This document shows positions 24,802-29,757 of a stretch of DNA of 33,763 bases, piece by piece (position 1 is the stretch's first letter; the number at the start of each line of letters is the position of its first letter). The notes under the pieces were generated by a model, which saw only the letters and a list, made by a program, of their open reading frames with translations, was not told the DNA's origin and ran no database searches. This DNA comes from a virus. The stretch lies in the IMG/VR virus record IMGVR_UViG_3300033149_004649, positions 1 to 33,763 of that record. One strand, 5' to 3'. The translations under genes and the position numbers were made by a program.

Positions 24802-25035
24802 TCAGTCCTCTCGACGAACGAGCCGACCAGCCCCTCCTCGCACGCCAAGCCAGGCGAGGAAGAGGCCGAAGATGAGCAACCCGCAGCCGCCGAGCGCCCC
24901 CAGCAGGCCCAGCGCGCCGGCGCCATCAACGTCTGTCCAAGCAACGCACCCCTCTCCCACGGCCACGAAGCCCGCTACCACGGCAAGAACGCCCAGGGCG
25001 ACCAGCAACCAGTCTCCAAACGTCAGCCTGTTCAT
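24802..25035 (-). CDS. Small two-helix membrane protein
   Basis: A 77-aa protein with membrane helices at about 8-27 (DWLLVALGVLAVVAGFVAVG) and 39-66 (AGALGLLGALGGCGLLIFGL). ATG at 25035 overlaps the repressor stop (ATGA) and has GGAGGGAGA upstream, so it is co-made with the repressor. Prophage genes expressed from the repressor promoter often act in lysogens, for example in exclusion of other phages; that role is inference here. Confidence 0.65.
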   Translation of the reverse strand: MNRLTFGDWLLVALGVLAVVAGFVAVGEGCVAWTDVDGAGALGLLGALGGCGLLIFGLFLAWLGVRGGAGRLVRRED

Positions 25036-25475
25036 CGCTCTCCCTCCTGTTTCTCGCCTCTCTGCCCCGTGAGCAGTTCGATCAACGCACTGGCCTGGGC
25101 TGGCGGCAGCGAGGCCAGTCGTTCGAGGAACGGAGCAACTGTCTCCACACCACCGAGAACGGCAGTTGCGCGGAATAGCCGAGCCATCTGCCGATCCAGG
25201 TAGGTGCCCTGGGCCTCCGCCACGAACTCGGCATTCCCCCGGTGTGAAGGCTCGAAACAGGGAGGCACGCCGAGAGCGAGGCCGAGCGCTAGCAGCGTAG
25301 TGGCCTTTGTCTCGGCCACCTGGCCGCCCAGCACTCGCCAAGCTGTGCTTGGGTTCAGCCCGGCGGCCTCCGCCACCGCCGGATAACTGATGTCCTGCGT
25401 TTCCATTGCCGCGTTCAGGCGGCGGAGATAGTCCTCGATCAGGCCGAGTGCCCGTTGATGGACTGGTCCACCCAT
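25032..25475 (-). CDS. CI-like HTH repressor
   Basis: A 147-aa XRE-type DNA-binding protein. The HTH is at about 31-70: YPAVAEAAGLNPSTAWRVLG, then GQVAETKATTLLALGLALGV. The C-terminal part is helical (LASLPPAQASALIELLTGQR), and no LexA-type Ser/Lys protease dyad is visible, so induction may not be by RecA cleavage. It is transcribed leftward from a divergent region with operators. ATG at 25475 has GGAGGG upstream. Repressor role is from fold, size and switch position. Confidence 0.75.
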   Translation of the reverse strand: MGGPVHQRALGLIEDYLRRLNAAMETQDISYPAVAEAAGLNPSTAWRVLGGQVAETKATTLLALGLALGVPPCFEPSHRGNAEFVAEAQGTYLDRQMARLFRATAVLGGVETVAPFLERLASLPPAQASALIELLTGQRGEKQEGER

Positions 25476-25603: not shown

Positions 25604-25631
25604 TTGACAGCGTTGCAGCCCCGACTAAAAT
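25604..25631 (+). promoter_or_regulatory. Rightward early promoter
   Basis: TTGACA (25604-25609), 16-base spacer, TAAAAT (25626-25631): a strong sigma70 promoter for the replication side. Transcription should begin at about 25638, within the palindrome at 25639-25651. Confidence 0.8.
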
Positions 25632-26509: not shown

Positions 26510-27330
26510 TGGCCGGCGCCAAACACCTGCGCGAGGGCTGGATTCGTGCCTACAGGAGTCTCTTCAGTGAGACGGACGCTTTCTGGGGCGACGCAGAACG
26601 CTGGCGGGCCTGGCTCGACCTCGTGCAACTGGCTCGCTGGCAGACGGAGACGGGAGTGGTCGAGGTGACCGTGGACGGGGGCGCGACAACCCTGGTCACA
26701 GCCCAGCGCGGCGAGGTCGTCAGCACGCACCGCGCGCTCGGCCGGCGCTGGGGCTGGCATCACGAGCGGGTGCGGCGCTTCCTCGCCGACCTCGTTTGCC
26801 TCGGTCGCGCCGAGCGCCTGCCCGCCCGGCGGGGTATCGTCCACCTCCGCCTAGCCAACTACGACGCCTACAACCCCGCCTTGGACGGTTCATGTGCCGG
26901 TTCCGTGCCGGTTGGGGCCGAAAAGTGTGCCAGTTCCGTGCCGGTTCCCCAGCATCGCAAATCCCGTCGCTCCCGACAGATGCGGCCCCGCCACCGCCCC
27001 TCATGTGCCGGTTCCGTGCCGGTTCCGCCCGAAAAGTGTGCCGGTTCCGTGCCGGTTCCCACGTCTAACCCCGCATCCGGTAAGCACTTACGGCTCCCTA
27101 AGAAGAAAGAAGTACAAGAAGAAAGAAGTACCCCCCTACCCCCCACGTGTGGACAACTTGTGGAAATCTCAGCACACGGTGTCAGCCGTCGGGGCCGCGT
27201 AGTGGCTGTTGAGGGCAACGGCAGCGGCCAACGGCTGTTCGTCGAGTGGCTCGACGGGCGTTTCCCTCCCAGGACGCCCGTGGAACAGCTCGGAGCCTAT
27301 CACGTGATCGATCAGGAGGCCGATCAATGA
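26509..27330 (+). CDS. Phage replication initiator with iterons in its own gene
   Basis: A 273-aa protein. Residues 10-118 are a winged helix-type initiator domain: GWIRAYRSLFSETDAFWGDA, then RWRAWLDLVQLARWQ, RGEVVSTHRALGRRWGWHHE and RVRRFLADLVCLGRAERL. This follows the usual phage replisome-organiser pattern (FWGD, rGE, rWgW). Residues 128-190 are a linker with four CAGSVPV-type repeats, which are the translated iterons. The C-terminus (about 205-273) has a beta-rich HGVSRRGRVVAVEGNGSG. Lambda O also holds its origin inside its gene. Start ATG 26509 overlaps the previous stop. Confidence 0.75.
   Translation: MAGAKHLREGWIRAYRSLFSETDAFWGDAERWRAWLDLVQLARWQTETGVVEVTVDGGATTLVTAQRGEVVSTHRALGRRWGWHHERVRRFLADLVCLGRAERLPARRGIVHLRLANYDAYNPALDGSCAGSVPVGAEKCASSVPVPQHRKSRRSRQMRPRHRPSCAGSVPVPPEKCAGSVPVPTSNPASGKHLRLPKKKEVQEERSTPLPPTCGQLVEISAHGVSRRGRVVAVEGNGSGQRLFVEWLDGRFPPRTPVEQLGAYHVIDQEADQ
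26894..27156 (+). other. Likely replication origin: eight iterons, purine-rich repeat, DnaA box
   Basis: Iteron GTGCCGGTT occurs eight times: 26894, 26905, 26927 (GTGCCAGTT), 26938, 27005, 27016, 27038 and 27049. Pairs are 11 bp apart, pairs 33 bp apart and the two groups 111 bp apart, close to whole helical turns. Downstream, AAGAAGAAAGAAGTAC is repeated in tandem (27100-27115, 27116-27131), an AT- and purine-rich stretch that could melt. TGTGGACAA (27148-27156) is the reverse of TTGTCCACA, a known GC-rich-host DnaA box. The layout resembles lambda ori inside gene O. Confidence 0.75.
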
Positions 27331-28251: not shown

Positions 28252-28957
28252 AGCAGAAGCACAGGTCATGGTTGGCGACGCACACGACATCCTGCCCGAT
28301 CTCGCTGGGGGATGGTTCAGCTGGATCGTCACGGACCCACCCTATGGACCCGATGCGCTCGATTGCTATGATCTCCTTGGACGGGAGGCGCCACGCCTGT
28401 TGGTCAAGGGCGGCTTTCTGGTCGTTTATGCGGGGAAGATGTATCTGGACCAGGTTTTCGCGCGGTTGGGGAACGATGGGCTGTCCTGGTTCTGGTTGCT
28501 CAGCGAGCGGAATCAGCGGAACTGGCCTCGCGTGTTCAGTCGCCGGATGCTGCAACTCAACAAGCCGATTCTGGTATTCACCAAGGGCCGACCGAAACGT
28601 CTGGCGTGGATGCGCGACGAGATCGAGGCGCCCCTCGCGAAGGACCACCACCCTTGGGAACAAGCCCTCGACCTGCCGCTCTTTCTGTTCCAGAAACTGG
28701 CGCGGCCAGGCGAGACCGTCCTCGACCCGTTCTGTGGCTCGGGCACGACGCTCGTCGCGGCCAAGATGAGCGGCCTGAACGCGGTCGGCGTCGATAACGA
28801 TCCCCAGGCGGTCGCCACGGCTCGCCAGCGTCTCGCCGACATCCGACCCTGTCCCGCCCTTGCGGCGGGCTGCCGGAGAACGAAACGACATTGGATCGGC
28901 CGCCGCGCCCGACCGATGCACTTCGGCAAGAAGCGAAAACGGAGGGTCCACGTATGA
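28241..28957 (+). CDS. DNA methyltransferase, beta class (DPPY)
   Basis: A 238-aa SAM-dependent amino-methyltransferase for adenine-N6 or cytosine-N4. The catalytic motif IV DPPY is at 32-35 and the SAM-binding LDPFCGSGTTL at 161-171, in the order IV then I that marks the beta class. Then GVDNDPQAVATARQRL is the acidic loop. ATG 28241 with GGGAGAGG upstream overlaps the previous gene. No restriction enzyme lies nearby, so it is a solitary methyltransferase, likely for protection against host restriction or for regulation. The basic tail (FGKKRKRRVHV) may aid DNA binding. Confidence 0.93.
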   Translation: MESEAEAQVMVGDAHDILPDLAGGWFSWIVTDPPYGPDALDCYDLLGREAPRLLVKGGFLVVYAGKMYLDQVFARLGNDGLSWFWLLSERNQRNWPRVFSRRMLQLNKPILVFTKGRPKRLAWMRDEIEAPLAKDHHPWEQALDLPLFLFQKLARPGETVLDPFCGSGTTLVAAKMSGLNAVGVDNDPQAVATARQRLADIRPCPALAAGCRRTKRHWIGRRARPMHFGKKRKRRVHV

Positions 28958-29757
28958 GTCGGCCGGCACTCTATTGTGAGCTCGGCATCAACTGGTTCAC
29001 GGGCTGCCGTGGCGGGCTGCCCTGCCAGGAGTGGTGTTGGGCAAGGCGCATGGCCAACCGGCTGCGGGGACGCTGCGGCTATCCTGAGGATGAGCCGTTC
29101 AGGCCGACGTTCCACCAGGAGGTGTTCGAGAGGCCGCTGCCGAAGGCGAGGAAGACCATCGCGCTGAACTTCATGGGCGACTGGGCCTTTGCGAGCGACG
29201 AGCAGAAACAGGCCATGCTTGACAGGATGGAGGCCGAGTGGCGGCACAGGTTCCTGACCCTGACGAAATGGCCCGCGGAGTTTCACCGGTTCACGATGCC
29301 CCCGAACTGCTGGTTCGGGGTTTCGGCCTCCACCAATGCGGACCTGGCGCGGCAGCTGCGCTGGGCGAGAGACGTGTTTACGCATAGGTTTTGGTTAAGC
29401 CTCGAACCGCTGCTTGAAGCGCCTGACCTGAAGGCCATTGCGGATGCGATTTACGAGGGACGCTCTCCCGACTGGGTGGTGGTCGGCTGCCGGAGCGGAC
29501 CGGGGGCGCGATGGTCGTGGGGACATCCTTATGGGAGTCGCGAGCATGCCGTCCATCAGTGGACTCGCTCGGTCGTAAATATCTGCAAAGCGATTGGGAT
29601 ACCGGTCTGGGTCAAACAACTGCCGGTCCTGAGGCAGGGACGTTGGCGCGTCTCGGACGAGCCGGCGGACTGGCCAGCGGACCTGAGGATTCAGGAGACG
29701 CCGTGGAAACGGCAGAAAGGAGGGAGCGATGAACGTGGGCGTCGAGGCCGTGCCTGA
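28954..29757 (+). CDS. Phage Gp37/Gp68 family (DUF5131) protein
   Basis: A 267-aa protein of a phage-associated family of unknown reaction. Family marks are a Cys cluster near the start (NWFTGCRGGLPCQEWCWARR; C18, C24, C28), then WFGVSASTNADLARQLRWAR and FWLSLEPLLEAPDLK, with DWVVVGCRSGPGAR. The family's usual cluster is C-x6-C-x2-C; here it is C-x5-C-x3-C. Its similarity to radical SAM-like enzymes is suggestive, not established. ATG 28954 overlaps the methyltransferase stop; GGAGG lies at 28941-28945. Confidence 0.85.
   Translation: MSRPALYCELGINWFTGCRGGLPCQEWCWARRMANRLRGRCGYPEDEPFRPTFHQEVFERPLPKARKTIALNFMGDWAFASDEQKQAMLDRMEAEWRHRFLTLTKWPAEFHRFTMPPNCWFGVSASTNADLARQLRWARDVFTHRFWLSLEPLLEAPDLKAIADAIYEGRSPDWVVVGCRSGPGARWSWGHPYGSREHAVHQWTRSVVNICKAIGIPVWVKQLPVLRQGRWRVSDEPADWPADLRIQETPWKRQKGGSDERGRRGRA

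Follow-up and report, generated by a model that had tools for sequence, protein, structure and literature searches.

A probable replication origin with two iteron blocks inside the predicted initiator gene of an unclassified phage

Origins placed inside the initiator gene are familiar from lambda and several Gram-positive phages. Rep2009 of Tuc2009 and ORF13 of TP901-1, which like ORF11 of r1t are DnaD-like replisome organizers of lactococcal phages, bind direct repeats within their own genes, and these repeats act as the origin of replication (PMC8965321). The origin likewise lies inside the replisome organizer gene in the SPP1 G38P/oriL and 80alpha ORF20 systems (PMC6316719, PMC5499656), and Rep of pSK41 combines a winged helix-turn-helix (wHTH) domain, an origin-encoded dispensable linker and a host-specific C-terminus (PMC5703833). 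We analysed a viral sequence of 33,763 nucleotides (IMG/VR record IMGVR_UViG_3300033149_004649; the whole stretch is called the window here) in which eight short direct repeats (iterons) lie inside a gene for a predicted phage initiator. The region 26894–27156 is very probably a replication origin embedded in that gene on the lambda O, Tuc2009 and pSK41 plan; it would add a case from an unfamiliar phage to an established class of intragenic iteron origins. Support comes from homology of the gene product to replisome organizers, repeats at the same position in related genes, the predicted disordered linker that the repeats encode, an adjacent AT/purine tract and a minimum of the GC skew. An earlier note on this DNA had read the region as an origin on the lambda O plan; these lines of evidence back that plan, but the layout that the note singled out is not exceptional.

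The array comprises seven exact copies of GTGCCGGTT and an eighth with a single mismatch (GTGCCAGTT), spans 26894–27057 and has successive spacings of 11/22/11/67/11/22/11 bp (Table 1). The earlier note had described eight 9-mers in two blocks of four, one of them mismatched; we re-found them at the same coordinates, and the start-to-start spacings that it gave (11 bp for a pair, 33 bp for a double pair and 111 bp for a block) were correct on re-measurement. Blocks I and II together form one 60-nt direct repeat of 93% identity, with the second copy 111 bp further on. Seven exact copies of one 9-mer in 200 bp is the extreme for the entire window (maximum of 3 in 60 Markov-1 resamples). A search of viral contigs with an exact 20-mer found no match. 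Spacings of 11 and 33 bp correspond to 1.05 and 3.14 turns, placing the sites of one block roughly in helical phase, whereas 111 bp corresponds to 10.57 turns (10.5 bp per turn) and sets the two blocks about half a turn apart. Presentation on the same DNA face, as previously proposed, thus holds within a block, and one shared face for both blocks is ruled out arithmetically.

Given that 11 is not a multiple of 3, the copies alternate in codon phase: one 9-mer is read in two phases, four copies each, and the encoded peptides differ (CAGS and VPV). Synonymous codon shuffling of the linker never reached eight copies (0 of 100 shuffles). This suggests that the iteron repeat is maintained at the level of the DNA and not of the peptide.

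All iterons lie within an open reading frame (ORF) of 273 aa, in the part that encodes a predicted disordered linker after the wHTH domain; the start codon of this ORF shares bases with the stop codon that ends the preceding ORF (TGATG). PHROG 2514 ('DnaD-like helicase loader') matches residues 9–122 (E = 7e-7), tblastn found phage initiators that are 27–32% identical over the first 110–140 residues, one of them a BS-TP2 protein annotated 'replication initiation O-like' (E = 3e-7), and the best Foldseek matches among viral structures are named Replisome organizer (E = 5e-9). A Pfam search returned no match up to E = 0.1, RepA_N (PF06970) included, a sequence search of the PDB returned none, and Foldseek searches of the PDB using the wHTH and C-terminal parts separately gave nothing below E = 0.001. 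AlphaFold2 with 30 homologues predicted wHTH secondary structure for residues 30–120 (predicted local distance difference test (pLDDT) mostly 80–96), with the linker (residues 128–204, including the repeat-encoded stretch) mostly below 50. VIA-align gave Z of about 8–9.5 between the domain and wHTH folds, and among solved structures the domain resembles many regulators, including CRP-like proteins. The longest aligned spans were with 4pql (Z 8.5, 100 aligned, root-mean-square deviation 5.3) and 4pt7 (Z 8.3, 105 aligned, root-mean-square deviation 6.3), both N-terminal domains of initiators ('Structure of initiator') from RepA_N proteins, but their Z scores are tied with those of CRP-like entries. 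The gene product is predicted to be a DNA-binding homologue of phage replisome organizers, in agreement with the earlier impression that it looks like a phage initiator.

A three-sequence wHTH profile recovered 47 viral and 12 Bacteroidota genome loci (a six-row profile, A1, was too divergent for scanning). With five phage records and the window, these gave 38 non-redundant genes of usable length, which fall into ten wHTH groups at 50% identity, with 21 of the 38 in one group. When the most frequent 9-mer of each segment is counted, the stretch directly after the wHTH part has 5.5 copies on average, compared with 2.2 within the wHTH part (Wilcoxon P = 2e-7), 2.7 further downstream and 3.6 in synonymous shuffles; for 20 of the 38 genes, no more than 5 of 100 shuffles of that gene attain its count. 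Of the 32 genes with four or more copies, 30 have them in two or more codon phases. Among the Bacteroidota relatives a repeat pitch of 12 bp predominates, while several others have 11 bp, and many relatives have two-block arrays in which the last site of one block and the first of the next are 44 bp apart. Of 37 genes, 18, 27 and 20 show inter-block lags of 44, 56 and 68 bp, respectively, where synonymous shuffles gave 12.0, 14.6 and 15.5; all three lags are 2 modulo 3, so that block II is read in a different frame from block I. The earlier note had suggested scanning related phage genomes at this gene position, and the repeats are indeed found at the same gene position, in widely varying spellings (GTGACACAG, GGGGCACAA, GTAACCCAC, CCGTTACAC and GACAAACCA). 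The place in the gene is conserved and the repeat sequence is not, which would fit initiators that each recognise a sequence of their own. Two blocks of iterons of about 9 bp, with a pitch of 11–12 bp and often a codon-phase-shifting spacer, would constitute a family-wide origin grammar that is apparently undescribed: we found no description of a two-block, frame-shifting iteron layout in searches of an open-access library, which were not a full survey. One relative (L117, 1504–2514) has 12 linker copies of AGTGACACA, which would fit a duplication of the two-block unit.

Many relatives also have perfect hairpins (arms of 7 bp or more that differ between genes; loop often of the T[GA]AC type) downstream of the iterons and purine tract, 120–230 bp after the wHTH motif (for example, L002 at about 2569–2586; also L003, L110, L118, L120, L128, L140, L142 and others). 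Hairpins of such size occur in 19 of the 38 genes; the corresponding figures are 2.1 for shuffles and 6 for the wHTH part. They are possibly priming or helicase-loading hairpins. No strong hairpin of this kind was found in the window (z −1.6).

The tandem 16-bp purine-rich repeat that the earlier note placed after the iterons was found again. Within the tract at 27088–27131, 40-bp windows reach 62.5% AT, a value attained by the top 0.3% of such windows in this sequence of 62–64% GC. A plot of cumulative GC skew, another suggestion of that note, has its global minimum at 27146, just past the iterons; its amplitude was reached in none of 2,000 block shuffles, and the skew is −0.06 over the 4 kb before the minimum and +0.09 over the 4 kb after it.

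We infer the steps of initiation, namely initiator binding, melting, helicase loading and any role of DnaA, as follows. The N-terminal winged helix would bind all eight iterons of 9 bp, and the protein would probably do so as monomers, which stack head to tail in each of the two blocks at a pitch of 11 bp; the resulting nucleoprotein complex would strain and open the adjacent purine/AT-rich tract (27100–27131); and the host replicative helicase would then be loaded there, with replication continuing by means of host enzymes. Several points weigh against the assignment of this region as an origin. Conservation rests on homologues of 27–38% identity, 21 of the 38 in one cluster, because a single-protein pattern search of viral and genome contigs found no close relative. 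Copy number alone is within the synonymous null in 18 of the 38 genes, in part owing to the repetitive nature of the encoded linker. Transcription or mutation biases can also produce skew minima, and the run of C at 27132–27147 favours the exact base, so that the minimum is placed safely only to 26.5–27.2 kb; genes run rightward on both sides of it, with minus-strand genes at 22.9–25.5 kb, and gene orientation may contribute to the pattern. Finally, the scanned ORFs of the window included no recognisable helicase, loader or primase.

The window protein covers only positions 3–111 of PHROG 2514, whereas lambda O matches positions 88–269, and the helical O/DnaD-like C-terminus that is usual in relatives is replaced by a private segment. 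Its last 69 residues had no homologue in Pfam or viral contigs, and phage matches were insignificant only. Single-sequence AlphaFold2 modelled them with moderate confidence as a small five-strand barrel (pLDDT 76), for which the best VIA-align match was weak and Tudor/KOW-like (Z 5.5); the private domain is probably a beta-barrel. An imperfect 19-nt inverted repeat (79%, 12-nt loop) lies at 27243–27292 in the C-terminal coding part, after the DnaA-box-like site. The altered C-terminus raises the question of how the helicase is loaded without a recognisable loader. Two ORFs downstream of the initiator belong to no known family, and unrecognised downstream genes may supply a loader.

A refinement compatible with the same origin is that host DnaA, bound at 27148, is essential and recruits the helicase, in a division of labour like that of RK2 or P1; its premise is that the phage initiator no longer has a helicase-loader C-terminus and so needs DnaA. 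Consistent with this, no exact TTRTCCACA other than TTGTCCACA is present in the window, this box lies 91 bp from the last iteron, a second, weak box (TGTGGAAAT) follows 11 bp on, and the protein has the curtailed PHROG match and candidate barrel described above. Yet 0.22 exact boxes are expected by chance in the whole window, the relatives show no enrichment (4 boxes near the origin site, 0.27 per kb compared with 0.50 per kb elsewhere), which rules out the box as a family trait, and the unrecognised downstream genes may provide the loader. We regard the refinement, together with its premise, as a tentative possibility. The DnaA box reported by the earlier note is an exact match on the minus strand, but is not conserved in relatives and may be due to chance. 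A hybrid origin, in which a lambda-type intragenic two-block array is joined to a beta-barrel in place of the helicase-loader C-terminus and to host DnaA at 27148–27167 bringing the helicase, is unlikely.

Much less probable is a reading of the repeats as a minisatellite at the coding level, in which the linker (CAGSVPV...) expands, is functionally neutral or selected as protein and has nothing to do with an origin. The two blocks do look like a recent duplication, the repeats encode a disordered linker and the 18 genes within the synonymous null would be accommodated. However, the 11-bp unit puts successive copies within a block in alternate codon phases, lags of 2 modulo 3 are over-represented between blocks (for example 56 bp), a similar array is found in Tuc2009 rep, a known origin, and the GC-skew minimum falls just after the array. 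Similarly improbable is that the wHTH protein uses the 9-mers as operators to control transcription or copy number (autoregulation or handcuffing) and that they are not a replication start: CRP-like proteins and other transcription factors are among the matches of the fold, and plasmid iterons often have a control role too, but the sites are some 400 bp into the gene and distant from the promoter-like site at 25604, the proteins homologous to the initiator are replisome organizers, and both the AT tract and the skew minimum are next to the iterons.

The initiator gene is in an early-operon position near a divergent, minus-strand HTH repressor-like gene (25032–25475), which adjoins the promoter-like site; this setting also speaks for the origin reading. 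Downstream of the origin, a DNA methyltransferase gene (PF01555; 28178–28957) overlaps a DUF5131 gene (28891–29757). The best matches of the terminase gene (807–2714) are about 36–41% identical (Paenibacillus phage Pd_22F is the named one, with IMG/VR contigs besides), and none of 40 records with related terminases carries a PHROG 2514 initiator; the terminase relatives therefore do not share the initiator. Judging by these matches, the source is an unclassified, mosaic phage.

Table 1 Coordinates of the origin region and associated features in the window.
Feature	Position	Strand	Basis or remark
Sigma-70-like promoter TTGACA-16-TAAAAT, upstream of early genes	25604–25631	+	11/12 match; 0.2 expected in shuffles
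Predicted initiator/replisome-organizer gene, 273 aa	26509–27330	+	ORF list; PHROG 2514; tblastn; Foldseek
Part encoding predicted winged-helix DNA-binding domain (aa about 9–124)	26533–26880	+	AlphaFold2, VIA-align
Iteron block I (GTGCCGGTT at 26894, 26905, 26927 (mismatch copy) and 26938)	26894–26946	+	Codon phases 1,0,1,0
Iteron block II (GTGCCGGTT at 27005, 27016, 27038 and 27049)	27005–27057	+	Codon phases 1,0,1,0
Purine/AT-rich tandem 16-mer (AAGAAGAAAGAAGTAC, twice), candidate DNA-unwinding element	27100–27131	+	Repeat search, AT content
Part encoding private C-terminal segment (aa 205–273), predicted small beta-barrel	27121–27327	+	AlphaFold2, VIA-align
C-rich tract with global minimum of cumulative G−C at 27146	27132–27147	+	Skew plot
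DnaA-box-like TTGTCCACA	27148–27156	−	Motif scan
Weaker box TGTGGAAAT (plus-strand reading), 11 bp past TTGTCCACA	27159–27167		Motif scan

A predicted origin has thus been placed in an unclassified phage from sequence alone, and the rule is transferable: short repeats at 11–12 bp should be sought in the linker directly after the wHTH domain of DnaD-like phage initiators. With such a rule, one could predict origins in many uncultured phages and pair the specificity of their initiators with iteron sequences.

Among described systems, Tuc2009 and r1t resemble the window in that the part of the gene coding for the linker has short repeats with a pitch of 11 bp: Tuc2009 rep, for which both annotation and publication place the origin in the gene, has four copies of GGCAACCA in a region that matches the window linker, and r1t ORF11 has four of GGAACC. 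Both have four copies in one array, in contrast to eight in two blocks, and the C-termini of the Tuc2009, TP901-1 and r1t proteins match DnaD/replisome-organizer profiles, which that of the window protein does not. The reverse complement of the window unit, GGAACCGGCAC, contains the GGAACC core of r1t orf11 (L150, 2396–3130); the shared core and pitch, in opposite orientation to the gene, could be coincidence. An hhalign comparison of the window wHTH profile with lambda O, Tuc2009 Rep, r1t and TP901-1, in which single-sequence templates made for a weak test, detected no homology, and these systems therefore serve as anchors for mechanism and not as proven close kin. The 80alpha ORF20 repeats are spaced 15 or 30 bp apart, and the protein belongs to other PHROGs. 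pSK41 Rep and the window initiator have a common three-part plan, but pSK41 has four Rep boxes and a DnaD-like C-terminus that binds DnaG. Lambda O and ori-lambda resemble the window in that the initiator gene contains iterons with an A-rich tract after them, belongs to an early operon and encodes an N-terminus that binds DNA (a prediction for the window). Lambda iterons, however, are 18 bp, individually near-palindromic and spaced 20–24 bp apart, as opposed to 9-bp direct units at 11 bp, and lambda O has an O-like C-terminus (the part that contacts P/helicase loader) that the window protein lacks. The double-pair layout, which the earlier note had considered foreign to lambda, is indeed unlike lambda iterons, but is not exceptional, as two-block arrays recur in many relatives and 11-bp arrays in Tuc2009 and r1t. 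What is unusual in this comparison is an initiator that dispenses with the usual helicase-loader C-terminus, and a frame-shifting two-block layout that recurs across its relatives.
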